Origin: a virus
DNA length: 40,165 nucleotides
Strand: one strand, 5' to 3'
IMG/VR virus record: IMGVR_UViG_3300032677_000070
Coordinates: 1-40,165 of that record
The position numbers were made by a program, and so were the translations under genes. The notes beneath the pieces were generated by a model that was not told the DNA's origin, searched no databases, and saw nothing but the letters and a program-made list of their open reading frames with translations. Below are positions 11,289 to 39,582 of the stretch, piece by piece; position 1 is the stretch's first letter; each line of letters opens with the position of its first letter.

Positions 11289-11332
11289 CTTTCTACTGGA
11301 TGGGTGCCCGCTACATGCCCCATGTTGGGCCA
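11275..11332. promoter_or_regulatory. Nested inverted repeats in the divergent intergenic region
   Basis: Outer arms TGGCCCAA (11275-11282) and TTGGGCCA (11325-11332) pair perfectly. Inside them CCCATC (11284-11289) pairs with GATGGG (11299-11304). The structure lies between the divergent capsid and cargo operons and covers one candidate start of the protease gene. It may be an operator or a leader hairpin. I see no convincing -35/-10 pair on either side. Confidence 0.35.
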
Positions 11333-11392
11333 CCAGGGACGCCAGGCCGTGGCCCGAAACCCACGCTGGCCTCTACAGAACAGGAGTCAGCC

Positions 11393-14300
11393 ATGGGTCT
11401 GAACGAAACCCTCCGATCCCTCCTTAAGGCCCATGTGAAGGGCCACACGCGAGTGGTGAACGGCAAGGTGATCTACATCCACGACTACGACTCCAGCAAG
11501 CCCCAGGGCCGTGCCGCGGAACTTCACGAGCGCACCACCATCGGGAAGCACCGGAGTGGCACCCACTACCTCCGCGCCACCGACGCTGAGGACGGAACCC
11601 AAATCCAGGCCACTGCCAACAGGCTGGGCATCAAGACCGACAAGCGCCGCGCCGGGGCCAACCACTTCGGCCGCGTGGGCGCATACGACCACTACCATGT
11701 GGAGAGCCCCGAGCACGCGCTGGCCATCCACGAGGAACTGAAGAAGCTCGCCGGCAAGGGCGCTCCCGAGATGCAGGAGCCCGGGCCCGAGGCCAAGGTT
11801 GCCGCGAAGAAGGCCGCGCCCAAGGACCACACCGAGGCCAACATCGTCGCCCACGACGCCGAGGAGGAATCCGAACTCCTCCAGGGGAAGGGAGACAAGG
11901 CCGCCCATGCCCACGCTCGGACGGTCTCTGCCCACAACGGGACCGCATTCAAGCACCCCCACCCCACGACCGCGAACCTGCACGAGCTGGCCGCGCAGGC
12001 CCACCGGGAGGCCCACGCCGAGAACGGCGAGGAAGGCCACCTGAAGGCCGCAGAGCACCACGACACCCTGGCGGCCTACCACCACGGCGAGGGTAAGAAG
12101 AAATACGAGGCGTTCAAGGCGAAGCAGGCGTCAGATTACGAATCCCACCGGACGAAGGCGAAGGAGGCCAGCGAGGCCGCTCATACGGCCAGCCTCACCG
12201 CCAACACGAAGGATGAACACGCACGGGCGCTCGGCCTCCACCACCAAGCGATGCTCGAGCACCAGGAGGCCGGGAAGGCCACAACCCACGCGGGCCGAAA
12301 GTCCATGCATGAGGCGAACTTCGCCGAGCACTCCGACATGATCAACGGCCACAGCGCCAGGATGACCACTGGGGGCGGCAAGGACGCCACCCTCGAGGCC
12401 CGGGCCGCCAGCAACCTGACCAGGATCCCCGATAAGGACCTGAAGCCCGAGGACTACGACAAGGCCATCGCAGCCCACAACCGCGCTGGATCCGCCCATG
12501 TGGTCGCCATGGACAAGGGGCAGGCGGGGAGCCGAGCCCACCACAGCAGCCAGGCGGACCAGCATGCCCAGGACGCACGGACGATCGAGGCGATGAAGGC
12601 CGAGCACCTAAAGGAACATGGCAATGCCTCCGCCGGCGGCAACCCTCCAAGCGAGGACTCCAACGGAACCCCCAAACTTCGCGCCCACAATGCCACCCGT
12701 GTGGCCAACGAATTGTCCGAGAAGGCGAACAACAGCAACAGCCCCGAGGACCACACGGCCGCAGCCGAGGCCCATGAGAAGGCCCGGATACTCCATCACG
12801 AAGCCCAGCCGTCGGGATTCGACGCACCCGGAGCCGAGGAGCACCGCTTCGCCAAGAAATACCACGGGAACACGGCGGAAACCCACAAGGAGAAGGCGAA
12901 GGAACTCAGCCAGCCGAAAATCCGCAAGATCGTGGAAGATCAGCAGGCGAAGGAGAAGGCCGAAGGCCCCCAGGGCGACAGCCCCAAGCTCAAGGCCGCC
13001 AAGGCCAAGAACTGGGGCAAGCCCAGCGAATTCCCCAACGGCGACATGCGGGAAATCCTCCACCCCGGGGACGGGAACCGAAAAAACCAGGCCGCCCGGA
13101 AACCCAGCGATTGGGACGAGGCCGTGCAGGAGAGTGGGCCCATTGGCGACCACCCGGACGAAATCGGAGCCTTGAAGCACCTGCATGCCGCCCACGGCAC
13201 CCACTGGGTTCCCAAGCCGCTCAACGACATCAACGATCATCCGCACAGGGAGAACGACACCGACTACAGCGGGCAGGTTCGCGGCAAGCGCCCCCCCATG
13301 GAATTCATCGCCAAGGACAGCAAGGGGCGCCACTTCTACGTGAACACCGAAGGCGGGAAATACGCCCGATACGCCCGCCACATCCCTGACGAGATCGCGG
13401 AGAAGGCGGGGATCACGACCCCGCACCCCATGGACAAACTTGGTGAAGCCGGGAAGGCATCAAGGAAGGTGCTCGACATCTCATCCGAGATCGGTCAATC
13501 GGGGATAACCCCAGAGAACCATCCAAGGTGGACGGAGCGGGAGTCCTTGTCCAAAGAGGCGGCCAAACTTCACACCGAAGCCGCCAAGCAGGCCCACACC
13601 AAGGGCGACCACAAACTGGCAGAACTCCATGAAAAGTGGGCAAAGTCACACGGAGGGTCTACAGACGAGCCCGTCACGGTGAAGCCTGCCGAGGAGCCCA
13701 AGGGCCACGCGATCCCCAAGCCGACCACCATGCCCCCCCTCGCGGGAGCACGGCCCAGTGATGTCGCCGAGCACGGCGCCCAGGCATCCGACCTCAGCCG
13801 AAAGGCCGAGGCGCTGAAGAATGGCGCAGGCGGTTACCCCCACGAACGCGCTGCCATCACCGCCCACAATGCAACCCTGAACGCTCGAGTCGGTAGCCTA
13901 CAGGCCGCCAGCGGTGGGGACCATGGTCGGGCAGCCCTCTTGCACACCGCTGCAGCCCAGGCCCACGGAGAAGCCGCCACCGCCGCCAAGGGGCCCATGA
14001 GTGACGGTCACGAGATGATCGCCTCCGGACACAGCGACCTCGCCAAGAAGCATGCAGCCATCGCCGATGCCTCCAACGCAGAGAAGGAAGCCAACAAGGC
14101 CCGCGCCAAGGCCAAGCTGCCGGAATACACCGCCAAGGCGAACGAGGCCGGCAAGAAAGCATTCGCCATGACCCGCAAGGGGAACGACGACCCGGACGGA
14201 GAGGGCAAGGTCGAGGGGCACCACGACGTCGCCTCGAAACTCCACGCCCATGCCGCCAACCTCCACCGGGAGGCCCGGGAAATGGCCCACACGGCCGGGG

Positions 14301-16141
14301 AGGCCCAGCCGCTCCTCTACCACGACGAGATGAGCAACCACCACTCCGAGGCTCATGTGCAGCACAAGCATGAGATCGAACACCCCGGGCAGGTCGCCCG
14401 GGCCGGAACCCAGCAGATGATCCGGGCCGCCTCCGCCTTCGAGAAGCACTACGGGGAGAACAAGCCGGAGCCCACCCCCGGCGCCTCCGCCAAGGACTCC
14501 GTCGCCTCAACCCACGACGGCCTGACCTACGCGCAGCGCCTGGCTGGGAAATCCAACAGCCCCATGGAAAAGAGCCGTCTACACGATGCCGGCCACTCCT
14601 CAGAGGTCGCCTACGCGACGGGCGGCAAGCAGGACCACATGAAGGCCCACTACGACCACCTCGCCGCTGCAGGACAAGCCAACCACCCGGACATCAAGGC
14701 CCACCACGAGAAATACGCCCAGATCCACAAGGAAAAGGCTGACGCGATCGTCCCCTCCGCGGCCCCCAAGCCGAAGCACCCCGCCAATGTCGCCTACGAT
14801 GAGGCTCACCGCGTCCCCAACGTGAGGATCAATAAGAAGAACTGGCCCAAGTTTGGCGACAACACCCGGACTAGCACCCAGAAGGTGACGAAGGACGCCA
14901 CCGACGCCACCACGAAGGCCGAAGGCAGCGGAACCGCCGAGGATCACCAGGCCGCTTCCGACGCTCACTGGAAGGCAGCCCAGGCCCATGAAATCGCCTA
15001 CAGCGGACCCGGCCAGACCTACTACTCCGGCCACAGCCGGGCCAACGACGCCCACATGAAGGCTGGGATCTACCACCAGCAGAAGGCCATGGAGGCGAAG
15101 AAGGCCGGCAAGACCAACGCGACTGCTGCGAAGGAACCGCCCCTCGCCCCCGAGGCCAAGGACTACGACAAACGAGTCCGCGCCTACGAGAAGAAGGGCA
15201 TGAGCCGCTCGGATGCCCAGGGCGTAGTCGATGCCGAGGACATGAAGGCCCGGAGCAACCCCTCGGGAAAAGCTGAGGGGGCCTCGCAGGCCCCCGCCTA
15301 TCCCAACCTTAAGGGAGACGCCAAGAAGATGGGGCTCCACGAATTCTTGGATAAACACAATATCGAACATTTAAATGAGCACCTGGACAATGGGCTGACT
15401 CCGTCCAATAGGCCCCACGCCGAACTCCACCCAGATCGAATGGACCCATCTGAATGGGACGACTGGGATGAGCACAAAACGTGGGCTGGCAACACCATGC
15501 CTACATCCAAGAAACACATAGAGGGCCTCCGTGAATCAATCCGAAAGGGCGCCAAGACCAACCCTGTTCTGGTAGACCACCAGGAACCTGGTAAATACAG
15601 ACCACAGGTCATAGACGGCCATCATCGTGTCGCCGCACACAAAGAGGAGAACAAGCCGGCGCCCGTCGGATTTAACGCCAAAACCCTCGCTGGCACTTGG
15701 GCGAGTGAGAACGGGAAACCAAACACCCAAAAAGACCGGGATCGGATGGAGTCGGAATACAGGGCCCACCTTGCAACTAAGCCGGCTGCGTTAAAACCCC
15801 CCGCCGCCCCCAAAGGTGAGGTAACCGGCGCCAAGGAAAAAACCCGAGAGGCCGTCAACAATGCAGACCAGGGCGACGGTGGAAGCCGAGCCTACGACCA
15901 CAAGTGGGACAACGACAAGGGGAGCCCCAGCACCGCCAAGGCCATGGATGCCACGCACAAGCTGTCCTATGTGGACGGGTTCCCAAAGGAGCACGCAGAG
16001 GCCGCGAAGCACCACCGTGCCGCTGCAAGGGAATACCGCCTCGGAGAGCGTGACAAGAGTATCTCCGCGATCAAGGCAAACAAACGTGCCGACTACCACG
16101 ACGCCATGGCCGAACACCATGAAACCCACTCGAAGAAATAG
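11393..16141 (+). CDS. Giant His/Ala/Lys-rich repeat protein with a ParB-like domain (polyvalent cargo protein candidate)
   Basis: 1582 aa from ATG 11393 with ACAGGAG seven bases upstream; an open extension to 11300 lacks a site. Residues 1-120 form a globular start with the motif HTRVVNGKVIYIHDY (about 19-35). Much of the rest is imperfect helical repeats with A..H..A...H spacing, giving a very His-rich protein. A globular island lies at about 545-680 (PPMEFIAKDSKGRHFYVN). At about 1335-1425 a ParB/sulfiredoxin-like domain appears: NPVLVD followed by QVIDGHHRVAAHKE. That domain is more AT-rich than its surroundings, as if inserted. It lies first in the cargo operon, next to a smaller relative. 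Injected DNA-associated protein is the likely role; a structural role is possible. Confidence 0.65.
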   Translation: MGLNETLRSLLKAHVKGHTRVVNGKVIYIHDYDSSKPQGRAAELHERTTIGKHRSGTHYLRATDAEDGTQIQATANRLGIKTDKRRAGANHFGRVGAYDHYHVESPEHALAIHEELKKLAGKGAPEMQEPGPEAKVAAKKAAPKDHTEANIVAHDAEEESELLQGKGDKAAHAHARTVSAHNGTAFKHPHPTTANLHELAAQAHREAHAENGEEGHLKAAEHHDTLAAYHHGEGKKKYEAFKAKQASDYESHRTKAKEASEAAHTASLTANTKDEHARALGLHHQAMLEHQEAGKATTHAGRKSMHEANFAEHSDMINGHSARMTTGGGKDATLEARAASNLTRIPDKDLKPEDYDKAIAAHNRAGSAHVVAMDKGQAGSRAHHSSQADQHAQDARTIEAMKAEHLKEHGNASAGGNPPSEDSNGTPKLRAHNATRVANELSEKANNSNSPEDHTAAAEAHEKARILHHEAQPSGFDAPGAEEHRFAKKYHGNTAETHKEKAKELSQPKIRKIVEDQQAKEKAEGPQGDSPKLKAAKAKNWGKPSEFPNGDMREILHPGDGNRKNQAARKPSDWDEAVQESGPIGDHPDEIGALKHLHAAHGTHWVPKPLNDINDHPHRENDTDYSGQVRGKRPPMEFIAKDSKGRHFYVNTEGGKYARYARHIPDEIAEKAGITTPHPMDKLGEAGKASRKVLDISSEIGQSGITPENHPRWTERESLSKEAAKLHTEAAKQAHTKGDHKLAELHEKWAKSHGGSTDEPVTVKPAEEPKGHAIPKPTTMPPLAGARPSDVAEHGAQASDLSRKAEALKNGAGGYPHERAAITAHNATLNARVGSLQAASGGDHGRAALLHTAAAQAHGEAATAAKGPMSDGHEMIASGHSDLAKKHAAIADASNAEKEANKARAKAKLPEYTAKANEAGKKAFAMTRKGNDDPDGEGKVEGHHDVASKLHAHAANLHREAREMAHTAGEAQPLLYHDEMSNHHSEAHVQHKHEIEHPGQVARAGTQQMIRAASAFEKHYGENKPEPTPGASAKDSVASTHDGLTYAQRLAGKSNSPMEKSRLHDAGHSSEVAYATGGKQDHMKAHYDHLAAAGQANHPDIKAHHEKYAQIHKEKADAIVPSAAPKPKHPANVAYDEAHRVPNVRINKKNWPKFGDNTRTSTQKVTKDATDATTKAEGSGTAEDHQAASDAHWKAAQAHEIAYSGPGQTYYSGHSRANDAHMKAGIYHQQKAMEAKKAGKTNATAAKEPPLAPEAKDYDKRVRAYEKKGMSRSDAQGVVDAEDMKARSNPSGKAEGASQAPAYPNLKGDAKKMGLHEFLDKHNIEHLNEHLDNGLTPSNRPHAELHPDRMDPSEWDDWDEHKTWAGNTMPTSKKHIEGLRESIRKGAKTNPVLVDHQEPGKYRPQVIDGHHRVAAHKEENKPAPVGFNAKTLAGTWASENGKPNTQKDRDRMESEYRAHLATKPAALKPPAAPKGEVTGAKEKTREAVNNADQGDGGSRAYDHKWDNDKGSPSTAKAMDATHKLSYVDGFPKEHAEAAKHHRAAAREYRLGERDKSISAIKANKRADYHDAMAEHHETHSKK

Positions 16142-19112: not shown

Positions 19113-19382
19113 CGCGAGTCTGTGCCTTGCGGCCCACCTCATACGCCCAAAGCGTTTCGGCTGGGGCTCCCCACCGGGCATGTAAAGGTTGGGGCCACTT
19201 GGGACCGAACGCAAGTCCTTACGCTCACGACCAAAGGGGGTTCCCGGTGAAGTCGGCGGCGATGTTATACCCTCCGACCCTACGCGCTGCGACCTACATT
19301 CGCCCGGAACACAGCGGGAGCGGGAACCAGAGTCAGGTTGAGCCCATCCCCACCAACCCGCAAGCCCCTTTGTGAGCACCAC
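19113..19382 (+). other. Apparently non-coding gap between nuclease and helicase genes
   Basis: About 270 bases. A plus-strand open frame overlaps the previous stop by ATGA (19109-19375, 88 aa). Its product (Pro/Ala/Ser-rich, no hydrophobic core pattern) and lack of a ribosome site do not look like a gene. Base composition is less GC-biased than the neighbours. It probably holds a promoter or the remains of a gene, but I see no clear -35/-10 pair. Confidence 0.4.
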
Positions 19383-22300
19383 ATGACCCAGCCCATCCAA
19401 TTCCGCGACGCCGCCGGCAACGACCTCGACTGGAGGATCGTCGGGTGGTCGGCTGTCATCGCCCCCAAGCCCATCACCACCCCGGACATCGACGGTGCCG
19501 CGGACCAGGCGGAACCCCCGGGCCGGATCCGCAAGGGCACCGAGGCCCCCAGCTACAAGCGCGGGCGACTGGTGTTCCAGGGGATCCCTGTGGTCATCGA
19601 GAACCCCAAGGGGAGCGTGCGGAGGGGATATGGGCCGGATGGGAAGCCGTGGGCGAACGAACTGCAGGCGCACTATGGCTTCATCGCCCGCACCTTCGGC
19701 CAGGACGGCGACGGGGTGGACGTATTCGTAGGCCCGGACCCCGACAGCGACTTCGTGCTCATCATCCACCAGGTGGACCCAGCCACCGGCCAACCGGACG
19801 AGGACAAGGTGTGCCTCGGGTTCTCGAGCGCCCTAGCCGCCAAGACGGCCTACATGGGGAGCTACCAGAAGGGCTGGAAGGGCATGGGGTCCGTCACCCC
19901 AACCACGGTCCAGGGGCTGAAAGACTGGATCGCGGACGGCCAGACCGACCGCCAGATCCTGAAATCCGAGCCCGATGCCGACGGGTGCCGCTGGATCACC
20001 GTCCACCACGGCGGAGGCGAGGGCCAGGCCATCAAGGTCATGCCGGCCCAGGGCCACAAGGGCACCTGGCGGGTGGTCGGTGGCGCCGGTGGGAGCCTCA
20101 ACGGCCTCCGACTGCACGGACTCAAGAGCCCCGAGGAATACCAGAAGGAGGCCAAGGAGCGCCGCCAGCAGCAGAGCCTCGAGAAGAAGAAGCGCCAGCA
20201 GGACATGACCCCCGAGGAGCGCCACGCGGACAACGCGCTCGAGAAAGAAACCAAATCGAAGAACAAAGAGGTCCGGAAGAAGGCGGAGACTGCCTTCGCA
20301 GACAAGGTGCTGGGCCCCGAGCAGGGCAGCCTGCTGGGCGATGACGGGGAGCCCACGCCCGATGACCCCAAGGCCCAGGCCGAACACCACCGGGAGCGCC
20401 TGAAGGCAGCCCACATGGCCGTGCGCGAGGCCCAGAAGAAGCTGGTCCTCGACGTCGAGGCCCGGGTCCAGGCCGGCATCCCCACCATCGGGGGCTTCGC
20501 GCCCCACGGGCTGGACATCGATGATCTGGTCTCCGAGGCGGATCCCAAGGGCCCTGGCTACCAGCGGGCCCTGGCCAAGCGGGCGGAAATGTGCGGCCTG
20601 ACGGCGGACAAGCTGGCGGAGCAGATCGCAGACATCAAGGAGCGCCGGAACGCCGGGGAGGGGAAGCCCAGCCCCGCGGAGCCCGAACAGGCCAAGGATG
20701 GGGAGAAAACGGCCCTGCCAGGCATGGAGGGCGCCGTAGGAAAGGACGACCACGAGACGAAGAAGGCAGCCAACATCGAGGCCCACAAGGCCGGGAAGGA
20801 AATCCAAGCCCACAAGGCCGCGGCCACCCGGGAGGCCGTGAAGGAGGTCATCAAGAAGAACGAGAACCTGGCAGCGCTCCTGCAGGCCCGGAAGGAACTG
20901 CGGGCCGTCTATAAGGCCGCCACCCCGGAGGCCAAGGAGCGGGTGTTCGCCGAGGGGTTCCAGATGGCCGTCGGGGAGGGCGACACCGCCGCGCTCGAGC
21001 AGGACGTCTATCAGCAGATGCTCACCAACAACGTCGTGGGCTTCCTGCGGGAAGTCGGGGAAGCCTATCCCGAGGGAGAGCCCCTGGACCGCTTCGACCC
21101 CAAGGCCATGGAGGGCTTGCACGCCACCCGCGGGGCCGCTGCCTTCGACGCCCTGCACGAGATCGCCCTGGCGGCCGTGGGCCAGGGGATGATCGAGCGC
21201 GACGTCGTGGAGGCCCTGGGCCCGGAGGGTGCCGCCCAGCTAGTGGGCCGGGGCATCCGGAGGGAGTTCAGCCCGGAGGACCAGGCGTCCATCCTCGAAG
21301 CCCTGGAGCACCACCACCTGAAAGAACAAGAGGCCCTGCCCGGCGTCGTGGACGAGGCCCAGGCACTGAAGGCCGAAGCCAACCGCCTCCGGGCGGACCT
21401 GGCGGAGAACCCCCGCGACCTGACCATGGCCGTGGAGATGCAGAAGAACCGCCTGGCCACCTTGAAGGAAGCCCGACGGACCCTGGGAGGAGCACTGGGC
21501 CGCCTCGAGGCCCGGGCAGCCCTGATCGCCGATCTGCAGCGGGGCAAGGACCAGGACATGATGACCCTCCCCCTGGGGAAGATGACCCCGGAGAAGGCGG
21601 TCCAGACCGCGGCCTCCATGGGCATGAAGGAGGGCGACTACAAGATCGACCACGAGAGCGGCGAGGCCGTGATCCACATGAACCCGCAGGGCCAGGACCG
21701 CCTGGTGCAGCCGGTGGACATGGCGGCCACCCACGAGCGGGACCTGGCCCTGGCCATCAAGGGCGGCCAGCTTGACACGCCCGGATACCTCCCCAAAGGC
21801 TTCGCCGATCGCACCGACAGCCGATACGACCACCCCATCCAGGAGGCCCCCCAGTTCCGCAAGCGCCTCCAGGTGACCGACGGCATGAGCCCCACGGAGG
21901 TCCACGACGCCCTGGCGGACCATGTTGGGGCCCGGATCGCCGATGGGGAGCGCCCCTCGGACATCCTGAACGACGTCATGTCGGGAACCTTCATGGCGGA
22001 CAGCGTCCACGAGGGAGCGATGAAGGACTACGTCGACACCCTGCAGCAGGTGTTTCCCCTCCAGGAGCAGGTGAAGGACAAGGACGGGAAGCCGGTCGTC
22101 CAGAAGGCCGAGGACGGCACCGAATATCCCAAGATGCGCCTCCGCACGATGGAGGAACTGGCCCCCCACTTCGACAAGATGCTGGACGCCTACCTGACCA
22201 AGCAGGGCGTGGCCGGCGACGCGGCACTGTCCCGCCAGCGCGTGGATGCCGACCACCCAGACTTCGCCGAGGCGGTCCACCGATCGCTGGCGGAGGACCC

Positions 22301-24785
22301 CCGGACGGTCGCCGCATTTACCCCTCCCGGGGAACTCACACCCGAGCACCAAAGCCACATCCGCGACTACTTCTACCGGGAAATCAAGGGCGTGGACCCC
22401 GAGGCCCATCGCGCCAAGGCTGAATCCCAGGTGGACGGCCCCCCCGACAAGGCCGGCGAGGAACCCAAGCCGAAGGCCGCAGCCCAGACCAAAGACGAGA
22501 AGGTCCACACCCGCGCCATGGAGATCGCCGGCCCCCAGCCGGAGGAATGGGAAGTGGATATGTTCGGGGAGCAGACCCACTCCCCCGTCTGGGTCGACTG
22601 GAAGGCCCGCTATGACGGCGCCAAGGAGGCCGCGGAGAACGGCCAGGACGGCGACCTCGAGGCCAACACCAGCACCTACATCGCCCCCAGTGGGCAGAAG
22701 GTCCAGGCGTCGGCCGCGGCCCCCCAGGTCGAGGACAGCCCATGGGCGCAGTATGTCCAGGCCATGGGAGGGCTGAAGCAGGCCCAGGCCGCGGTCCAGG
22801 ACAGCATGAAGGGAGCCTTTGCCCAGCGGTTCAAGGCCCAGCACGAGCGCCTCACCGGCAAGGGCCTGAAGCTGGGCCAGACAGACCTCGCGCACCGGGA
22901 GCGGTTCATCGGCGCCACCATGGACCCCGACAAGTTGGCGGCCATGCGGAAGAACCAGGCCAGCCTCGCCACGGGCCTCCGGAAGCGCGACTCCCGCGGC
23001 CGTCTCCAGGAAGGCGCCGTGGCCGACATGATGGAGGAGGCCCGGAAGAAGCGCCAGGCAGCCCTCCAGGGCCAGGCACCCCTATTCGAGAAGGAGGAGG
23101 AGCCCGGCCTGCGCCCCACCCTCGGCCCCACCCTCGAGGCCCAGATCCGAGCCCACATCCCGGGCCTGGCCGTTGCCTTCGAAGGAATTCGGCGGGGGAT
23201 GAACGTCCACGAGAAGGTGGCGATGGACGGCGACAAGAAGGTCCAGCAGCGGGCCATCCGAGCCATCATCCACCTGCAGCGCCAGGGGCTCTTCCTCGGC
23301 GCCGGATCCGGCAAGACGCCGATCATGCTGGGGAGCCTCACGGAACTCCACCACAGCGGGAAGGTCAAGAAGTCCATCCTGGCGGTGCCCAGCATCGTGC
23401 AGAAGCAGTTCGGGGCAGAAGCCATCCGGTTCATCGACCCCAACAGTGGCTTCCATGTCCACGCCCAGCCGGGCGAGAGCTATGAGGAGCGCCTCCGGGC
23501 CTACCAGGACCCCGACAAGCACGCCGTGGTCGTCACCCACCAGAGCCTGCGGGATGACACCCTGCACATCCTGGGCGACCACCTGGGCATGGACCCCGAG
23601 CGGACCCACGACTGGGCCATGAGCGTGCCCAAGGACAAACTGGCCAACACCGTGAAGGAAGCATTCGCCAAGGCCGGCATCGACTTCCAGGCCCTCATGG
23701 TGGACGAGGCCCACGGGGCCCTGGACCGACTCGGGAAGGAGGACAGCACCTTCTCCCGCATCATGGACGCCCACAGCCGGAACGTCTCCCACATGGTCAT
23801 GGCCACGGCCGACCCCATGAAGAACGACGTCTCCGAGATTTACAGCGACCTGAACCACCTGGACCCCCACAACTACCCCGACGAGGGCAAGGACGAGTTC
23901 ATGCGCCGGTTTGGCGGGGACGCCGAACTGTGCAAGCGCAGCCTGGCCCAGCAGCTGACCCGCTACTGGACCAACGGCCGCGTCACCCTCCCCAAAGAGG
24001 CCCACCGGGTGGATGACGGGATCGAACTCGAGCCCCACCAGCACGAGGCCGTGGCCAAGGTCGACATGGCCGTGGGCAAGCTCCGGACGGGCGCCGAGGG
24101 CGAGGAACGCCTGAAGTGGGCCAAGGAACTGGCCCCGGAAGCCTTCGAAGGCCATCCCGAGGGCGACCATGAGGCCATCGCCAAGATGGTGGCCCGCAGC
24201 GTGGGCACCTTCCGCGAGTCGGCCATGAACCGGATCATCAACCTGGACCCCGCCGGCGGGAAGATGATCGCAGCCGTGAAGCAGGCCAAGGACGCGAAGG
24301 CCGAGGGCAAGCCCATGGTCATCTTTGCCCGGAACCTGGGCGCCGTGGCCTCCCTGCACAAGAACCTCGAGGCCGCGGGCCTGAAGGTGGCCAGCCTCAC
24401 CGGCAAGGACTCCAGCAAGAACAAGGGCGAGAAGGTGTCGGCCTACCAGCGGGGCGAGAACGATGTGATCGTGATGAGCGACGCCGGCGCCGTCGGGGCC
24501 AACCTGCAGGAAGGCAAGATCCTGGTGAACTATGACCAGGCGAACACGGCCATGCTGATGAACCAGAGGCAGGCCCGGATCAACCGGATCGGCCAGACCG
24601 ACAACGTGGAGATCCGGCACCTGCTGGCGAACCACAGCTGGGAGAAGCAGAACACCGAGCGCGTGAAGCGGAAGGATACCCTGGGGGCCGTGTTCCAGAG
24701 CCCCGAGGGCTTCCTGGACGACACCGGCCTCGCCGGCGACCTCCGCGAGATCCGGGCCCGCAGGAACCAGGAGAGAGTGGCATGA
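19383..24785 (+). CDS. 1800-aa polyvalent protein: inorganic-pyrophosphatase-like domain plus SNF2-type helicase
   Basis: The start is taken as ATG 19383, where the folded sequence begins; ATG 19338 is possible and neither has a strong site. Residues 45-185 match the InPase domain of polyvalent proteins: IPVVIENPKGSVRRG, AHYGFIARTFGQDGDGVDVFVG (Asp-rich metal site), then a LAAKTAYMGSYQKGW helix. About 215-245 holds WRVVGGAGGSLNGLRL, then a long helical middle. Residues 1290-1780 form a superfamily 2 helicase. They show Walker A GAGSGKT (about 1305), a DEAH box VDEAHG (about 1440), MATADPMKN, and motif VI QRQARINRIGQ (about 1728), as in SNF2 proteins. Such fusions are proposed to enter the host with phage DNA and protect or remodel it. 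Overlaps the next gene by ATGA. Confidence 0.8.
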   Translation: MTQPIQFRDAAGNDLDWRIVGWSAVIAPKPITTPDIDGAADQAEPPGRIRKGTEAPSYKRGRLVFQGIPVVIENPKGSVRRGYGPDGKPWANELQAHYGFIARTFGQDGDGVDVFVGPDPDSDFVLIIHQVDPATGQPDEDKVCLGFSSALAAKTAYMGSYQKGWKGMGSVTPTTVQGLKDWIADGQTDRQILKSEPDADGCRWITVHHGGGEGQAIKVMPAQGHKGTWRVVGGAGGSLNGLRLHGLKSPEEYQKEAKERRQQQSLEKKKRQQDMTPEERHADNALEKETKSKNKEVRKKAETAFADKVLGPEQGSLLGDDGEPTPDDPKAQAEHHRERLKAAHMAVREAQKKLVLDVEARVQAGIPTIGGFAPHGLDIDDLVSEADPKGPGYQRALAKRAEMCGLTADKLAEQIADIKERRNAGEGKPSPAEPEQAKDGEKTALPGMEGAVGKDDHETKKAANIEAHKAGKEIQAHKAAATREAVKEVIKKNENLAALLQARKELRAVYKAATPEAKERVFAEGFQMAVGEGDTAALEQDVYQQMLTNNVVGFLREVGEAYPEGEPLDRFDPKAMEGLHATRGAAAFDALHEIALAAVGQGMIERDVVEALGPEGAAQLVGRGIRREFSPEDQASILEALEHHHLKEQEALPGVVDEAQALKAEANRLRADLAENPRDLTMAVEMQKNRLATLKEARRTLGGALGRLEARAALIADLQRGKDQDMMTLPLGKMTPEKAVQTAASMGMKEGDYKIDHESGEAVIHMNPQGQDRLVQPVDMAATHERDLALAIKGGQLDTPGYLPKGFADRTDSRYDHPIQEAPQFRKRLQVTDGMSPTEVHDALADHVGARIADGERPSDILNDVMSGTFMADSVHEGAMKDYVDTLQQVFPLQEQVKDKDGKPVVQKAEDGTEYPKMRLRTMEELAPHFDKMLDAYLTKQGVAGDAALSRQRVDADHPDFAEAVHRSLAEDPRTVAAFTPPGELTPEHQSHIRDYFYREIKGVDPEAHRAKAESQVDGPPDKAGEEPKPKAAAQTKDEKVHTRAMEIAGPQPEEWEVDMFGEQTHSPVWVDWKARYDGAKEAAENGQDGDLEANTSTYIAPSGQKVQASAAAPQVEDSPWAQYVQAMGGLKQAQAAVQDSMKGAFAQRFKAQHERLTGKGLKLGQTDLAHRERFIGATMDPDKLAAMRKNQASLATGLRKRDSRGRLQEGAVADMMEEARKKRQAALQGQAPLFEKEEEPGLRPTLGPTLEAQIRAHIPGLAVAFEGIRRGMNVHEKVAMDGDKKVQQRAIRAIIHLQRQGLFLGAGSGKTPIMLGSLTELHHSGKVKKSILAVPSIVQKQFGAEAIRFIDPNSGFHVHAQPGESYEERLRAYQDPDKHAVVVTHQSLRDDTLHILGDHLGMDPERTHDWAMSVPKDKLANTVKEAFAKAGIDFQALMVDEAHGALDRLGKEDSTFSRIMDAHSRNVSHMVMATADPMKNDVSEIYSDLNHLDPHNYPDEGKDEFMRRFGGDAELCKRSLAQQLTRYWTNGRVTLPKEAHRVDDGIELEPHQHEAVAKVDMAVGKLRTGAEGEERLKWAKELAPEAFEGHPEGDHEAIAKMVARSVGTFRESAMNRIINLDPAGGKMIAAVKQAKDAKAEGKPMVIFARNLGAVASLHKNLEAAGLKVASLTGKDSSKNKGEKVSAYQRGENDVIVMSDAGAVGANLQEGKILVNYDQANTAMLMNQRQARINRIGQTDNVEIRHLLANHSWEKQNTERVKRKDTLGAVFQSPEGFLDDTGLAGDLREIRARRNQERVA

Positions 24786-27006: not shown

Positions 27007-27083
27007 TGGAAGCGGGGGCCAGATTCGAACTGGCGACTTTCGGCGTATGAAACCGACGCTCTACCGGACTGAGCTACCCCGCA
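27007..27083 (-). tRNA. tRNA with anticodon CAT (elongator Met or Ile2), CCA encoded
   Basis: 77 bases. D-stem GCTC/GAGC with loop AGTCCGGTA, anticodon loop TTCATAC on stem TCGGT/GCCGA, T-arm GCCAG-TTCGAAT-CTGGC, discriminator T and an encoded CCA. The acceptor pairs at 2-71 to 7-66, but bases 1 and 72 are both T, so the end is unpaired. The C11-G24 pair and the lack of three G-C pairs below the anticodon argue against an initiator. Met versus Ile (lysidine-modified CAT) cannot be decided. Confidence 0.9.
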
Positions 27084-31770: not shown

Positions 31771-31955
31771 TCGACTGGAAAGCACTCTCCATCCAGTTCA
31801 AGGCCTTCCGTGGCCGTGGCGTGAGCTACCACACGATCCAGGCCTGGCAGACCATGGGTATGCCTCACATTCAGGAGGGACGCTTCATCTTCTACATCTG
31901 GGATGATTGCCGGGAGTGGTATCTTGAACGCTTCAGTGTGAGGAAGGCCGGATGA
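31767..31955 (+). CDS. Excisionase-like DNA-binding protein
   Basis: 62 aa from GTG 31767, with GTGA and ATGA overlaps with its neighbours. The sequence RGRGVSYHTIQAWQTMGMPHIQEGRFIFYIWDDCREWYLER has the shape of an Xis/MerR-like winged helix. It shows a short helix-turn-helix (SYHTIQAWQTMG), then a wing with the aromatic FIFY strand, then a closing helix. Direct coupling to the integrase supports a recombination-directionality role. Confidence 0.65.
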   Translation: MIDWKALSIQFKAFRGRGVSYHTIQAWQTMGMPHIQEGRFIFYIWDDCREWYLERFSVRKAG

Positions 31956-33076
31956 AATTCTGGCGGGGCAAGGACGGCATCTGGAGAGTCCGTGACACCG
32001 TCGAGTGCCAGGCCAGCGAGTGCGACGCCTGCAAGTCCGGGACCAAGCACACCAAGCACACCAAGCGCTTCCAGAAGAACCTAGGCAAGGTGAAGGGGCA
32101 GGCAGAGGCCCTGGCGCTGGAGGTGGTGAAGGAGGTCAAGGCCAGGGCCAACGGGACCTACGTGCCCACCCTGAAGGAGCTGCGGCAGGACTGGCTAGCG
32201 GCCAATGCCACGGAGGTCTCCATCGGGCACTGGAACAACGTGAATACCTGGGACAGCCAGGGCCTCGACAAGTTCAAGATCGACCGCCTCACCAACGAAG
32301 TGGTGGAGCTGGCCCGAGGGAAGTTCCGGGCCGGGAAGGGCAGGGCAGGGGAAACCCGCTCCGATGCCACCGTGGCCGGTTGGATGCGCACCCTGAACCT
32401 GCTAATCAACTGGGCCATCGCCCGAAAGGCCCTCTCGGCGAAGCCCTACGACATCGCCATTCCCAAGCCCCAGAAGAACCCGAAAAAGATCCTGCCTGTG
32501 GCCATGGTGAAGGCCTGGGTGGAGTGTGTCGATCGCCACACCCGGAACTCACAGGTGGGCACGGCCACGCGCCTAATGGCCGGGCTGGGGCTCCGAGAGT
32601 CCGAGGCGCTGGGCGCCCGGTGGGAGTGGATGGACTGGGAAGCCCACACCTACACTCCTGGCCGGATCGTGGGTCGGAAGTTCGTCACGAAGGGGAAGAC
32701 GGCCGTGCCGGTGGACGTGCCGGCGTGGCTCTATGACCACCTGCTGCAGCTGCGGGGCGAGCAGATCCGGCTGGGCCTCATCCTGCCCTGGAAGACCCTA
32801 AAGGACGGCACCGAGATCCCGCACCCCGCCACCTTCACCAGGGCGGCCTTCCGGGCGGCGAACGTGGAAATGAAGACCCCGGGTGTCACGGCCCACCGGC
32901 TGCGCGGGACTTGGATCACGCACTTGCTGCGCCGGAAGACGCCGCTCCGGGAGGTTCAGGAGATGGCCCGCCACGCCGAAGAGAGCACGACGAACAGCTA
33001 CTATGAGATCGCCTCCGAGGTCCGCAAGGAGGCCCAGGAAGGCCTTGCCCAGGACATGGGTTTCGGGGCATCCTAA
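31952..33076 (+). CDS. int: Tyrosine recombinase integrase
   Basis: 374 aa from ATG 31952, overlapping the excisionase stop. The N-terminus has a Cys-rich start (CQASECDACKSG) and a basic KHTKHTKRF stretch. Residues 70-165 form the core-binding SAM-like domain (TLKELRQDWLAANATEVSIGHW), and 180-374 the catalytic domain. The catalytic set is visible: Arg215 in LGLRESEAL, Lys249 in VTKGKT, His315 and Arg318 in HRLRGTW, His341 in ARHAEEST, and nucleophile Tyr350 or 351 in NSYYEIA. It would integrate the phage at the tRNA-Arg fragment 67 bases downstream. Confidence 0.95.
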   Translation: MKFWRGKDGIWRVRDTVECQASECDACKSGTKHTKHTKRFQKNLGKVKGQAEALALEVVKEVKARANGTYVPTLKELRQDWLAANATEVSIGHWNNVNTWDSQGLDKFKIDRLTNEVVELARGKFRAGKGRAGETRSDATVAGWMRTLNLLINWAIARKALSAKPYDIAIPKPQKNPKKILPVAMVKAWVECVDRHTRNSQVGTATRLMAGLGLRESEALGARWEWMDWEAHTYTPGRIVGRKFVTKGKTAVPVDVPAWLYDHLLQLRGEQIRLGLILPWKTLKDGTEIPHPATFTRAAFRAANVEMKTPGVTAHRLRGTWITHLLRRKTPLREVQEMARHAEESTTNSYYEIASEVRKEAQEGLAQDMGFGAS

Positions 33077-34296: not shown

Positions 34297-34662
34297 TTAT
34301 TGAGTGGCGCTAGCTGTTGGTGCAGCGTAGGTTCCCGCTGCAAGAGACTGGAGATTGGCGATTAAAGTTGAATCGGTCACGAGACCGGCCGCCTGAGCCG
34401 CCGCAATAAAGGCCGCCAGAATGTCTGCTTTGTACCCAAAGTCATCCGTAATGCCGGGACCAGCTCCTCCCTCCAGGGCTGTGAGTTCATTCTGTGCCGA
34501 TTGAAGCCGCCGCTGGCTGTCGCCGCAGTTGCTCGAAAGCAGGGTGGCGAGGCTGGCCTGCGCTTCCACGAGGCCCTGCATTTTCGCTACCTTTTGTTTG
34601 AGTTCGGTTCGCCGGGCTTCATTGGCCAATGCGGTTTGAATGGTAAGGTCCATGGTCGCCAT
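34297..34662 (-). CDS. Small helical protein after the tail fibre (chaperone candidate)
   Basis: 121 aa from ATG 34662 with AAGGAG six bases upstream. Residues 5-65 form a helical coiled coil (TALANEARRTELKQKVAKMQGLVE). A linker follows, and then a small helical end (KADILAAFIAAAQAAGLV, STLIANLQSLAAG). It is 10 bases downstream of the fibre-like gene, the usual position of fibre-assembly chaperones. No family recognised. Confidence 0.5.
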   Translation of the reverse strand: MATMDLTIQTALANEARRTELKQKVAKMQGLVEAQASLATLLSSNCGDSQRRLQSAQNELTALEGGAGPGITDDFGYKADILAAFIAAAQAAGLVTDSTLIANLQSLAAGTYAAPTASATQ

Positions 34663-34672
34663 GGTGATCTCC

Positions 34673-36760
34673 TTATGGTGCTGGTTTCATGTTGTGGGAA
34701 ATGAGCCCGTCGCTGATGTAGGTTGAGCATCCGTCAACTCCGAACGTCACCACCTGTCCAAGAACTGGGGGACCTATCGTTTTCACGATGCTAGGAGACT
34801 GGCCCAAGATGGAATCGCCAGGCTTCAGATCTTGAACTGATACCCAGCCTTTGCCTTCAACCGCCAAACGGTGGAGCACGCTGAATTCAGGGGCCCGGCC
34901 ATCCTCAAGAACCACGGCAGAGCGCATCTTGAAAAGGAGAGAGACATTGCGAACGGTGCCCACCATAGGCTCTAGCGTCATGTCGTTCACGCCGATGACC
35001 CGTGCGCCATCGTAGAGGTCGCCTGCATCCACGATCAAACCGGAAGCAAGTGTGATCTTCACCCAAGGGGCAGGACACAGTCCTCCGCCTCCGCCTCCGC
35101 CGCCGCCACCTCCGCCGCCCGTGCCTCCTGTCATGTTGGTCGGCCAACCCGCACCACTGTTGGTTAGGGCAGACCCATCTGCATTGCCAGTAAAGGCATA
35201 GAAACAATTCGCAGCGCTTGGTCCGTAGACATTATAGAGAGAAACCAATGCCGCAGGAAATCCTCCGTTGATCCCAGAATCTACGGTTTCAAAGGTGAAA
35301 ATTGCTAGATTTCCAGAGTTTGAATCAGTGCCCGCAGAGTAGTAACTTCGATCATTGGCAACCGGATAATAGGTATCAATCGCCGTCAATGTCGCCGTGG
35401 TAGATCCCCCTGAAACCACATTCTGGCGATATAGGACAACCTTGAGAAACCGCATTGCGTCCAAATTGTCCTGCCAGGATGAAGGCTGGTAAGACAGTCC
35501 AAGGCGCCCGACGTGATTCGTTGTGTCCCATCGGCGACGAGTAATCGTAAGCCTGTCAATTAAGGGGGCACCTAGCCGTGTAGAAACGTCAATGCTTCCC
35601 CGGTAGAAGACATGCCCGACCGAGGTGTTCCCATCGAGCCCCTGATTGATCCGTGCCAGCAGGTAATCGCTGAAAATCGTGGACCCAATCTGAAGATTAT
35701 TCGACGCCACCTTCAGCGCGGTAGAGCTGATGTCCATGCGGGCGCCAGCCGTGGGGTTGCCTGAGACCTCGGTGTAGTTGCTGGTCTGGATGGCATCGGC
35801 CTGGAGCATGCCGGTATTGATCATTCGGCAAGCGTAGATCTGGTTGAATGCGACCGAAGTCGCCGACGATGGATTGAAAAGCTGAATAAAAACTTTCATC
35901 GTGACGGGAGCACCACCACCAGGAACTGATGCGGGAGCGGTTGCATTGAGGCTCAGCTTCTGAGGGTTGGTGTATGAAAAGGTGCTGACAGTTTGTGCAG
36001 AATAGTAATCAGCCCCTACTCCGTTCGCGTCCAAGAATGAGATACCAAGCCAAACGGTCCCCATAAAAGCGCCTATGTAGGCGGCGAAGCATTCGGCATG
36101 AAATTGATCACCAGGAGCACAGGGCGCAGAAGCCACCCGGTAATAGATGTTCCCTCCGGCACCCGCTGAAACCAGTCGGATCCATCCATTCGGCGCGAGC
36201 AGGGATCCGATGGCCGAAGGATCAATAGCGCCCCAGTTCACGAGCCCAAGGGACTCTGGGCTGGCCGCTGGCGGGATAGTGTTGGCACAATTCCCATTTT
36301 TTACGATGTTGTTCGGAGAGCGTGCCAACGCATCCGCATAGGCCGCATTGGCGGTGATCTCGTCCTGGCAAGCCTTCTGCAACGATGCCCGGTTCAACGC
36401 GATGGAGGTCCACCAGGTATTCAGGTTCGTCATGATGCTGGTGGAGGACATCGTGGTGCCATCCGGCCAGGTGGTGGCCCAGTTCGAAGGAGCACCCGCT
36501 GCGATCAGATTCGTGGATAGCGCAGCTACAGCCGCATCGTAGGACGACGAACTCACACCCAAAGCGGAAGACTGGGTGTCAAGTTGGGCATTTATTTGAT
36601 GTTCTGCATTCCAATCCTGGATAAGGATTATTTTATCAAGGTTAGTTAGCTTATTGGACGAGTTGAGATCGTTAACGGTAGATGTTGGCGCCAGCGGCGT
36701 CGTAGATGGAGCGGAAGAAGAACCACTCGAAGACGTGGTAGCCCACGGACCATTAGGCAT
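34673..36760 (-). CDS. Tail fibre/tip protein with polyglycine linker and C-terminal Hint (intein-like) domain
   Basis: 695 aa from ATG 36760 (GTGAGGG upstream). Residues 30-150 are helical (LDKIILIQDWNAEHQINAQLD) and 150-540 are beta-rich carbohydrate-binding-like modules. A run of 13 glycines (548-560) follows. The last 134 residues are a Hint domain. Block A is C562-PAPWVKITLASG, leading to DLYDGARVIG. Block B is FSVLHRLAVEGKGWVSVQDLKPGDSIL. Block F is VVTFGVDGCSTYISDG, ending LISHN (His689-Asn690) and MKPAP. All residues for N-terminal thioester chemistry and Asn cyclisation are present, but the residue after Asn is Met, as in bacterial intein-like domains that cleave rather than splice. 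Lower GC than neighbours. Confidence 0.75.
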   Translation of the reverse strand: MPNGPWATTSSSGSSSAPSTTPLAPTSTVNDLNSSNKLTNLDKIILIQDWNAEHQINAQLDTQSSALGVSSSSYDAAVAALSTNLIAAGAPSNWATTWPDGTTMSSTSIMTNLNTWWTSIALNRASLQKACQDEITANAAYADALARSPNNIVKNGNCANTIPPAASPESLGLVNWGAIDPSAIGSLLAPNGWIRLVSAGAGGNIYYRVASAPCAPGDQFHAECFAAYIGAFMGTVWLGISFLDANGVGADYYSAQTVSTFSYTNPQKLSLNATAPASVPGGGAPVTMKVFIQLFNPSSATSVAFNQIYACRMINTGMLQADAIQTSNYTEVSGNPTAGARMDISSTALKVASNNLQIGSTIFSDYLLARINQGLDGNTSVGHVFYRGSIDVSTRLGAPLIDRLTITRRRWDTTNHVGRLGLSYQPSSWQDNLDAMRFLKVVLYRQNVVSGGSTTATLTAIDTYYPVANDRSYYSAGTDSNSGNLAIFTFETVDSGINGGFPAALVSLYNVYGPSAANCFYAFTGNADGSALTNSGAGWPTNMTGGTGGGGGGGGGGGGGLCPAPWVKITLASGLIVDAGDLYDGARVIGVNDMTLEPMVGTVRNVSLLFKMRSAVVLEDGRAPEFSVLHRLAVEGKGWVSVQDLKPGDSILGQSPSIVKTIGPPVLGQVVTFGVDGCSTYISDGLISHNMKPAP

Positions 36761-37037
36761 AGACGGCCCTCACTGCGACATTGATTCCGGTGAGTGTCGT
36801 TTTGATCGGCACAGAAATCTGACATTCGTGGTTTTCGGTGGGCTGGACCTTTTGAATGGGGACGATGTAGGTCCCGGGGATTGCAGGATTCGTCCCGATG
36901 TAGAACACGACCTCGAACCAGGAGGGCAGCGGCACATTGCTCGGCCACCCCCATGTTGCGTAGAGATAGTTCAGTTTGAGCGTCTGAGGGTTACCGCCGT
37001 TGTCATCAATCCCATCACCACTGGGGGCCATTCGCAT
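36753..37037 (-). CDS. Small tail-operon protein of unknown function
   Basis: 94 aa from ATG 37037 with GAGGTG upstream, 8 bases after the tip-protein stop. It is a compact beta protein (PSWFEVVFYIGTNPAIPGTYIVP, HECQISVPIKTTLTGINVAVRAVYA). Its stop overlaps the fibre start region. The immunoglobulin-like strand pattern suggests a fibre-attachment or decoration domain. No family recognised. Confidence 0.55.
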   Translation of the reverse strand: MRMAPSGDGIDDNGGNPQTLKLNYLYATWGWPSNVPLPSWFEVVFYIGTNPAIPGTYIVPIQKVQPTENHECQISVPIKTTLTGINVAVRAVYA

Positions 37038-37045
37038 GTGTCACC

Positions 37046-39091
37046 TCAGATGAAGGGAGTGGTGCCGATTTGCAGCACCACGTTGGTCGGCTGCGGATAG
37101 GACTGCGCTGAGGGCGTGAACGAGTACGGCGTCTCACTCGACAGCACACGGCCGCCGCCTCCCCAGAGGTTGAAGCTGAGAATCTTTAGGTAGGACAGGA
37201 CCCCCACCTGGCCCGGCTGCAGCTCGTAGCGGAACATGGCCGAATCGCACCGCCCCCAGGACGCCCCGGAGCTGTGCGAGCTGATGGTGGTTCCGTAGAG
37301 GCCACGGAAGAGGCCGGTCAAGTTGTAGTGGTTCGCCGACGTGAGAGTAGCCGTCTGGAAGCTGATCATTTCCCCGTCCACCCAGAGCAGGTTCAGCCCG
37401 TTCTGAGCGCTGGCGAGGTCGATGGATGAAAGCGTGCCCCCGTTCGGCAGGACCACCGAAAGGGTGTTCGTGTTGTCCTGGGCGGCGCCACCAGCCCAGG
37501 TGGGCAGTGAGGCCGTGAGGGTTCCGTAGCGCCCCGGCGCGGTGATGCTCCCGACCTTCCCGTAACTGCTCCCGGAGGCGCTTCCATACACGTCGCCCGT
37601 GCCCCAGTTCGCACCGCCGGTCGTCAGGACGCAGACCTCGGCCCCCCCTGGCACCGCAGCGAACAGGGAAGGCGACGTGAAGATCAGCGGGGCAGCGCAG
37701 GCGCCCGGGTCCACGTTGACGTTGGGTGAAGTACCAGCGGGTGTCTGCGCGGTATAGAGCGCGGCGCTGGCCACGCCGAATGGCCACTCCTCGCAGGTGA
37801 AGGTCATGCCCCCGGCTTCGTTGTCCTCGCCGGGGATGTCCACCGAGACGATACGGACGGTCTTGTTGGTGAAGCCGATGATCGGATCCGAGATGTTCAC
37901 CAGGTCCATGGCCTCCAGGAGCATGTACTTCAGGCCGAGGTTGAACTGGTAGCCGTTCCGGATGTAGACGTTCTTCTGGCTCAGAATCAGGCTGATCTGC
38001 GAGGCCACGGAAGCCCGGCAGATGCAGTGGAGGGACTTCGCCGTGTCGTTCTTCTGGCCAATCAGCGCCACAGACACCGGGTCCGGCATCTGCATCACGT
38101 TGACGTTGTAGGCCAGGAGCCGGTCCAGGTACTCCACCGGAACACAGTTGAAGATGTCCTGGGTGCTGTCGCGGGTGATCTTGACCGGGTCCTTCGCCCC
38201 GTTGGTGATGAAGTCGTCGTAGCCCAGGTTGTAGATGGGCGTCGTGTTCGGCGTGTAGGTCGCCCCGTTGGCAGTGATGGGCACGTCGCCGTAGGGCAAC
38301 ACCTGGAGCACCATCCCCGTCGCCGTGCTGTGGCTGATGATCTCGGAGTTCGTGGCGTCCAGGATGTCCTGCAGGTGATCGCCGGCGTTCTTCTGGGTGT
38401 CGAAGCTGGGCGACAGGACGAACCCGCAGGCCTGGCAGTAGGTCTTGTAGGAGGCCGCCCCGGTGGTCATCCCCGCCACGTCGATCTGGCTGGTAAGCCA
38501 ACCCGCGCCGTGGTTCGGGTCGGTCAGGAAGTCCGTGATGATGTCGCTGGGGATCGCGTCGTAGGCGGCCAGGGCATTCGGGTCCTGAGCCGTCGCCAGG
38601 AAGGCCACAACCTCAAAGCCGAAGTTCGGGATGCTGGCGCTGGAACCCAAGGGCAGCGAGGCGCTGGCCACATAAGCGAAGCCGCTGTAGGGGGCGGCCT
38701 GGCTGGGGTAGTTGCTCGTCAGGGTCGCCCAGGGGGTCTGTGGCCGCGTGCCGGTGGCCGTGAACGTGAACCCGAAGCCCGACAGGCTGCCAAGGGCCCC
38801 GGCACTCCAGACCTGGTTGATGCTGGAGATGGGCCCCTCGCACAGGGCGATGATCACGAAGGCGTTGTAGGTGTAGGTGGTGCTGGACGAGCTGCCCGCG
38901 CCACCCTTACCGCTAGATTGGGAGGTCGTGTGCGGCGTGGCGATGAAGCCGCTGGGGGGAGCGAAGATCACGTTCCCGCTGATTCGGGTGGTGCCATAGA
39001 CCAGAGGCAGGCAGGACCCGTAGATGCTCGTCTGGATCTGAATGCCCGCGATCTGCTGGTCCACCTGGGACTGGTTGTGCCGGCCGCCCAT
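37046..39091 (-). CDS. Tail tip / attachment protein (Phage-tail_3-like, GTA gp15-like)
   Basis: 681 aa from ATG 39091, whose A is shared with the TGA of the peptidase gene; the longer open frame to 39211 is a shadow. It begins GGRHNQSQVDQQIAGIQIQTSIYGSCLPLVYGTTRISGN, the start of GTA-type tail attachment proteins. It contains FVIIALCEGPISSINQVW, ITDFLTDPNHGAGW and DATNSEIISHSTATGMVLQVLPYGD. A C-terminal beta module ends LWGGGGRVLSSETPYSFTPS. It would form the hub and tip of a non-contractile tail. It follows the NlpC/P60 gene as in gene transfer agents. The TIM-barrel half of full-length gp15 proteins is absent. Confidence 0.75.
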   Translation of the reverse strand: MGGRHNQSQVDQQIAGIQIQTSIYGSCLPLVYGTTRISGNVIFAPPSGFIATPHTTSQSSGKGGAGSSSSTTYTYNAFVIIALCEGPISSINQVWSAGALGSLSGFGFTFTATGTRPQTPWATLTSNYPSQAAPYSGFAYVASASLPLGSSASIPNFGFEVVAFLATAQDPNALAAYDAIPSDIITDFLTDPNHGAGWLTSQIDVAGMTTGAASYKTYCQACGFVLSPSFDTQKNAGDHLQDILDATNSEIISHSTATGMVLQVLPYGDVPITANGATYTPNTTPIYNLGYDDFITNGAKDPVKITRDSTQDIFNCVPVEYLDRLLAYNVNVMQMPDPVSVALIGQKNDTAKSLHCICRASVASQISLILSQKNVYIRNGYQFNLGLKYMLLEAMDLVNISDPIIGFTNKTVRIVSVDIPGEDNEAGGMTFTCEEWPFGVASAALYTAQTPAGTSPNVNVDPGACAAPLIFTSPSLFAAVPGGAEVCVLTTGGANWGTGDVYGSASGSSYGKVGSITAPGRYGTLTASLPTWAGGAAQDNTNTLSVVLPNGGTLSSIDLASAQNGLNLLWVDGEMISFQTATLTSANHYNLTGLFRGLYGTTISSHSSGASWGRCDSAMFRYELQPGQVGVLSYLKILSFNLWGGGGRVLSSETPYSFTPSAQSYPQPTNVVLQIGTTPFI

Positions 39092-39582
39092 CAGGCACCC
39101 CACACATTCAAAGACCAGACGCCCTGCTGGGCGCCCCGCAGCACGTGGTTGCGCTCGGCGTCGTCGAGGATGACTCCGAGCCGAATGTAGGCGTGGATGA
39201 GCTCCGGCCATTTGGTGACGATGGCACCGTGACTCATAGCCTTGTCGAAGCGGTAGAGGATGATGTCCCCAGGCAGCGGCGCCCGGTCCACCTTGTGGGC
39301 CACGCGCTCCACGATCTCCAGGTAGCGCTCCTCGGAGCGGTGCAAATGCCAGTCGTGGGGGTAGTCCTCGATCTTGGTGGGCTGGATCACCCCGGTGTCC
39401 TCGAAGACAGCCGCCAGGAACTGCCCGCAGTCCACCCCAGCGCCCCGCACGCGCCCTTGGTGGAGGTAGGGGGTCCGAAGCCAGGTCAGGGCCTCCTGGA
39501 CCACCGCCAGGCGCTGCTGCTGCTCCTCCATGGGCAGGTGCTCGATCTGGCTGTGGGCCGCCAGCATCAGGTCCGCGATCAT
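39091..39582 (-). CDS. NlpC/P60 peptidoglycan peptidase (GTA gp14-like)
   Basis: 163 aa from ATG 39582, ATGA overlap with the upstream gene. Catalytic residues are visible: Cys52 in GVDCGQFLAAVFEDTG, His118 in MSHGAIV and a third polar residue at His130 (ELIHAY). The segment LPGDIILYRF precedes the His, as in phage NlpC/P60 proteins. It would cut peptide cross-links during DNA entry and sits between hub and tip genes. Length is normal for the phage family. Confidence 0.85.
   Translation of the reverse strand: MIADLMLAAHSQIEHLPMEEQQQRLAVVQEALTWLRTPYLHQGRVRGAGVDCGQFLAAVFEDTGVIQPTKIEDYPHDWHLHRSEERYLEIVERVAHKVDRAPLPGDIILYRFDKAMSHGAIVTKWPELIHAYIRLGVILDDAERNHVLRGAQQGVWSLNVWGA

Follow-up and report, generated by a model that had tools for sequence, protein, structure and literature searches.

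The window, by which we mean the whole stretch of 40,165 nucleotides of viral DNA that was analyzed, carries a tail-fiber gene whose product ends in a predicted Hint domain. The gene lies between genes for a J-like tail-tip protein and a 94-aa protein on one side and a small downstream gene on the other, with the following features.

37046 to 39211, minus strand: J-like tail-tip protein (Phage-tail_3, Rcc01698_C, phrog_1101)
36753 to 37037, minus strand: 94-aa gene between J and the fiber, overlapping the fiber start; homologues in L008 and L128
34673 to 36760, minus strand: tail-fiber gene with C-terminal Hint domain, 695 aa, open reading frame intact
35081 to 35119, minus strand: glycine arm, residues 548 to 560, 13 consecutive Gly codons, mixed GGC, GGA and GGT
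34676 to 35077, minus strand: fiber Hint domain, residues 562 to 695, including the 5-residue C-terminal tail (profile, AlphaFold2, Foldseek)
35075 to 35077, minus strand: codon of Cys562, Hint residue 1, expected nucleophile of the N-S acyl shift (47/47 representatives)
34871 to 34873, minus strand: codon of His630, the block-B histidine of Ser/Thr-x-x-His (47/47 representatives)
34691 to 34696, minus strand: codons of His689-Asn690, block G (47/47 representatives)
34676 to 34690, minus strand: C-terminal tail Met-Lys-Pro-Ala-Pro, after Asn690
34685 to 34687, minus strand: codon of Lys692, the conserved +2 lysine (family alignment)
34297 to 34662, minus strand: small 121-aa gene directly after the fiber; its AGGAG overlaps the fiber stop

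A first-pass annotation of this DNA had placed a Hint domain directly behind 13 glycines and had it close on a final His-Asn, at coordinates that hold except for the 5′ coordinate, which was off by one base. The 13 glycines are there, but Leu561 intervenes between Gly560 and Cys562, the first of the 134 residues of the domain; likewise, His689-Asn690 is present, but Met-Lys-Pro-Ala-Pro comes after it. The block-B motif of the fiber is Ser627-x-x-His630. Ahead of the arm, the fiber body has a domain homologous to the C termini of fiber and J proteins in L002, L128, L022 and others; its structure model (pLDDT 52) was too low in confidence for use.

The 121-aa gene encodes a helical-looking protein with the motif TDDFGYKA and had no family match. 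It is a conserved neighbor directly downstream of the Hint fiber in the CPAPW clade and, in the close clade, follows the Hint gene in nearly every locus with downstream sequence; L128 also shares the lipoprotein-like gene that comes after it. Its product is a candidate partner of the Hint fiber.

Evidence for a Hint fold

As a single sequence, the fiber Hint domain gave no convincing match to Pfam, PHROG, NCBIfam or PDB profiles, and tblastn returned Corynebacterium phage terminase mini-inteins at about 32% identity (E about 1e-5). A search of viral contigs recovered four close relatives, and the resulting five-sequence profile matched the solved bacterial intein-like (BIL) domain 2lwy in the PDB (E = 5.6e-6). 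With 42 family sequences, 2lwy was again the best match (E = 3.7e-13), followed by many inteins. At E values of 0.01 or better, 31 of the 42 members matched Pfam Intein_splicing and 12 matched PT-HINT (PF07591). AlphaFold2, run on the family alignment, modeled the fiber domain with a mean pLDDT of 95.8 and a pTM of 0.88. Among solved folds, Foldseek placed the Mtu RecA mini-intein first (2in0; TM 0.87), with the Ssp DnaB mini-intein, BIL domains and hedgehog (1at0; TM 0.84) also at the top; the best-matching viral structure model was a Corynebacterium phage terminase intein, and some uncultured-phage proteins in structure databases already carry the label "Hint."

The first-pass annotation had proposed an HMM search and a structure prediction as checks. 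The first found Hint and intein profiles through the family profile and not with the single sequence, and the second returned a Hint fold with intein matches by Foldseek, so that profile, predicted fold and catalytic residues conserved in 47/47 representatives agree in making the last 134 fiber residues a Hint domain. The match is far beyond chance, since relatives at 34% identity keep the catalytic set, the profile finds inteins and BILs, and the fold is predicted confidently. Judged from these features, the chemistry of the domain is very probably intact, and the catalytic domain that had been expected is supported as a prediction.

A family with an invariant active site and a conserved lysine

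The family, previously unmodeled, comprises 67 distinct full domains, reduced to 47 representatives at below 70% identity with a mean identity of 34%. Cys1, the block-B His (in a Ser/Thr-x-x-His motif), Thr119-Tyr120, His128 and Asn129 each occur in 47/47 representatives, and conservation in the alignment peaks at the active-site columns. How far these counts are independent of recruitment depends on the scan. One was seeded solely by TYIS[ND]G[IL][LI]S, so that in its recruits Cys1 and the block-B His, being absent from the seed, are free observations and Thr-Tyr is not. A second was seeded solely by Gly5-Cys and the proline region after it; here His-Asn and the lysine are free, because the C-terminal residues lie outside the seed. 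A third scan had SHN[IAD]K in its seed, so only Cys1 and the block-B His can be scored in its recruits.

Residue +1, after the Asn, is variable (Ile, Val, Leu, Ala, Thr, Lys, Asn, Met and others; Met in the fiber) and is Cys, Ser or Thr in just 5/47 representatives. Lys, however, stands at +2 in 44/47 and at +1 in the other three, and without the members recruited by SHN[IAD]K it is found at +1 or +2 in 37/37. The controls were 15 inteins close to the family in sequence space. They came from plasmids and from phage genes (terminases, helicases and others), included two near-identical sequences and left bacterial BILs outside the sample; among them, +1 was Cys, Ser or Thr in 15/15 and Lys at +1 or +2 occurred in 0/15. 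Most representatives (43/47) end just 2 to 17 residues after His-Asn. In L030, L103, L174 and L186, 61 to 208 residues follow, and Lys at +2 is retained; the lysine is therefore tied to the junction and not to the chain end. At the level of sequence, the invariant catalytic set together with a Lys just past the predicted cut site is the mark of this tail-tip Hint family. The first-pass annotation mentioned neither the lysine at +2 nor the large family of phage tail proteins, with its gpI homologues and J-like members.

The residues ahead of Cys1 are less constant. At least five glycines in the preceding 15 residues were counted in 37/47 representatives and fewer in 10/47, with nearly none in L031, L046 and L048; position −1 is mostly Gly, Tyr, Ala or Thr, and the Pro found there in L170 should hinder the first step. 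Since the arm is common but not universal, it is probably a spacer. Polyglycine had originally been offered as either substrate or spacer, and the latter is the better fit; the 10 glycine-poor relatives leave the substrate reading weak.

Carriers of the domain

Wherever they could be typed, proteins carrying the family Hint are phage tail proteins, and the domain is almost always C-terminal. Carriers include a J-like tip protein fused to a fiber (L002; phrog_1101, central fiber J), separate fibers, long collagen-like or BACON-containing fibers, and homologues of lambda gpI (phrog_32; E about 1e-54). A search for Hint-less fiber bodies found only L153 to L155, which share the first ~50 residues, and because the fiber thus gave no clean comparison with and without Hint, we drew that comparison from gpI. 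In the gpI homologues, phrog_32 was matched to position 198 of 203 and the Hint starts some 27 residues further on, after a Gly-rich linker. By this alignment, gpI is complete ahead of linker and Hint.

Two full-length Hint proteins lie a few kilobases apart in six records with isolate-like names and in those of L170 and L192. The second is a lambda gpI homologue in both typed cases, and in the gpI cases read, the pair flanks a J-sized gene. The gpI homologues at L195 (6633 to 8153, minus strand) and L196 (1773 to 3365, plus strand) have their own C-terminal Hint in records whose fiber is Hint-ended too.

Among 50,697 phage records, most matches were enzyme inteins and L194 was the only tail-type member; plasmid searches gave no convincing family member. 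Bacterial and archaeal contigs, at one genome per species, yielded no relatives in two scans with exact seed patterns, which limits that test.

Relation to known Hint systems

A non-nucleophilic +1 residue is a hallmark of A-type BILs (PMC7765530, PMC7664689), and by sequence the fiber Hint has the features of that type, namely Cys1, His-Asn and a non-nucleophilic +1. The BIL-like character first noted for the fiber Met extends to 42/47 relatives. Like the A-type BIL of Clostridium thermocellum (PDB 2lwy), the domain has a Hint fold of ~134 aa with a block-B His, Thr-Tyr in block F, His-Asn, and a +1 residue that is not a nucleophile. A-type BILs lie in bacterial proteins that are variable and nonconserved; the tail-tip family is found in phage tail proteins, usually ends 2 to 17 residues past His-Asn and has an invariant Lys at +1 or +2. 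The bacterial adhesin FhaB, with three BILs at its carboxyl end (PMC3091684), sets a precedent for a BIL that terminates an adhesive protein.

Similarity to class 1 mini-inteins of phage terminases (such as Corynebacterium phage Zion TerL) spans the whole domain (27 to 33% identity) and includes Cys1 and His-Asn. These mini-inteins, in contrast, are internal, with Cys, Ser or Thr at +1 and no Lys at +1 or +2 (15 phage and plasmid inteins). Class 1 inteins have a nucleophile at +1 and exteins on both sides that make up one conserved protein, and we rejected that assignment on the Met at +1 and the five residues past Asn690. Class 3, in which residue 1 is non-nucleophilic and a WCT motif supplies a block F Cys, was rejected on the Cys at position 1 and, by hand alignment, a Thr at block F:4. 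Hedgehog Hog (1at0; TM 0.84) shares a C-terminal Hint behind a functional domain and a Cys1 thioester, but the fiber has His-Asn, which is dispensable for hedgehog transfer; it also lacks a sterol-recognition region and stops five residues past Asn690, so a Hog assignment was discarded. PT-HINT of polymorphic toxins (PF07591, matched by 12/42 relatives) is likewise found close to the end of a protein that is delivered to the surface, but no toxin domain follows the fiber Hint.

Proposed self-processing of the fiber tip

We propose that the last domain of the fiber is a Hint of A-type-BIL-like character, catalytically intact and likely acting as a C-terminal autoprocessing cap. The basis is the predicted fold, an active site that has its full set of residues and is strictly conserved, and the placement of the domain behind a tail protein that is otherwise complete. 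Following known Hint chemistry, in which Cys1 forms a thioester and Asn cyclizes (PMC7664689, PMC7765530), Cys562 would attack the Leu561-Cys562 peptide bond once the protein has folded, in an N-S acyl shift that would attach the Gly-rich fiber end to the Hint through a thioester, with the glycine arm serving as a flexible spacer that exposes the junction. Asn690 would cyclize and free the short tail Met-Lys-Pro-Ala-Pro. The thioester could then be resolved by water, yielding a fiber of ~561 residues and a released Hint, or by an amine (of the freed tail, the conserved Lys or another molecule), yielding a ligated end. That self-processing occurs in the phage seems quite probable. Release of the Hint has roughly an even chance of being the main outcome and is our default; transfer or ligation as the main outcome is a more tentative suggestion, kept as an option because the Lys is invariant. 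Active-site conservation could also serve a noncleaving role, such as a stable thioester. In phages with a family Hint, the tail tip is probably processed or brought into a chemically activated state.

An alternative hypothesis is that processing ends in covalent transfer, with an amine of another tail subunit or of the host surface resolving the thioester, so that the tail tip would be cross-linked or the phage fastened to the cell. The conserved, predicted thioester-forming Cys1 at an exposed tail-tip end is consistent with this, as are a Lys at +1 or +2 in 47/47 representatives, which belongs to the junction even where long extensions follow, and the second Hint tail protein nearby in the paired records. 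BILs are, however, reported to yield mainly cleaved products (PMC7664689), and we regard transfer of this kind as rather unlikely. A narrower version, in which the domains would form a phage-specific Hint class whose Lys beside the Asn is the acyl acceptor or a guide for an outside amine, giving an isopeptide or amide bond to a tail subunit or host surface, is distinctly doubtful; if true, it would mean covalent tail-tip assembly or covalent adsorption.

Protein splicing would cut out the Hint and fuse Leu561 with the short tail; in a few relatives, the second partner would instead be a long C-terminal extension. The first-pass annotation had considered this unlikely on account of the Met at +1, an argument that does not hold: A-type BILs that lack a nucleophile at +1 are reported both to splice and to cleave (Dassa 2004, Aranko 2013, as related in the reviews PMC7765530 and PMC7664689), and since ligation is reported for them, Met leaves splicing possible. 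The Cys1 and His-Asn set is complete, and extensions of 61 to 208 aa in four relatives are genuine. Nevertheless, we consider splicing unlikely, with a +1 nucleophile in so few representatives and only 2 to 17 residues to join in 43/47, where splicing would restore little.

That the domain is a selfish or relic mini-intein of no benefit to the phage is improbable: among annotated phage sequences, terminase mini-inteins come closest to it, but its catalytic residues are invariant although it sits at protein ends, in nonconserved positions where loss is cost-free, it has no homing endonuclease, and HN-x-K and the missing +1 nucleophile set the family apart from the 15 control inteins. Least probable is a purely structural role as a trimerization or binding knob without catalysis, which would suit the terminal position on fibers but not active-site residues as the most conserved columns.

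From our literature search, which left most subscription papers and preprints outside its reach, no paper turned up that describes a phage tail protein with a terminal Hint or BIL domain. A coherent phage tail-tip family with HN-x-K on gpI, J and fiber proteins appears to be new, and within that limited search the HNxK signature and the confinement to tail tips look unreported. If the cap is active, self-processing would be how many uncultured phages complete, or chemically arm, the tail tips that face the receptor; the searchable papers describe no such step for tail fibers. The lengths read from the genes of such fibers would then not be those of the mature proteins. Small Hint domains in which +1 is non-nucleophilic and +2 is Lys are also possible ligation tools.

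Other features of the window

A baseplate-wedge-like protein (4057 to 5400, minus strand) and the J-like, Rcc01698-type tip protein share this one 40-kb record. An 1,815-aa open reading frame (19338 to 24785, plus strand) has, at the C-terminal end, an SNF2-like helicase region (residues 1444 to 1782), and its residues 76 to 205 resemble the C-terminal part of the portal-labeled chain 9b41_L; from these matches it looks like a large polyvalent phage protein. A 1,613-aa open reading frame (11300 to 16141, plus strand) had no PHROG or PDB match. The window also carries a tRNA-Met (CAT) gene (27007 to 27083, minus strand) and an integrase gene (31952 to 33076, plus strand).
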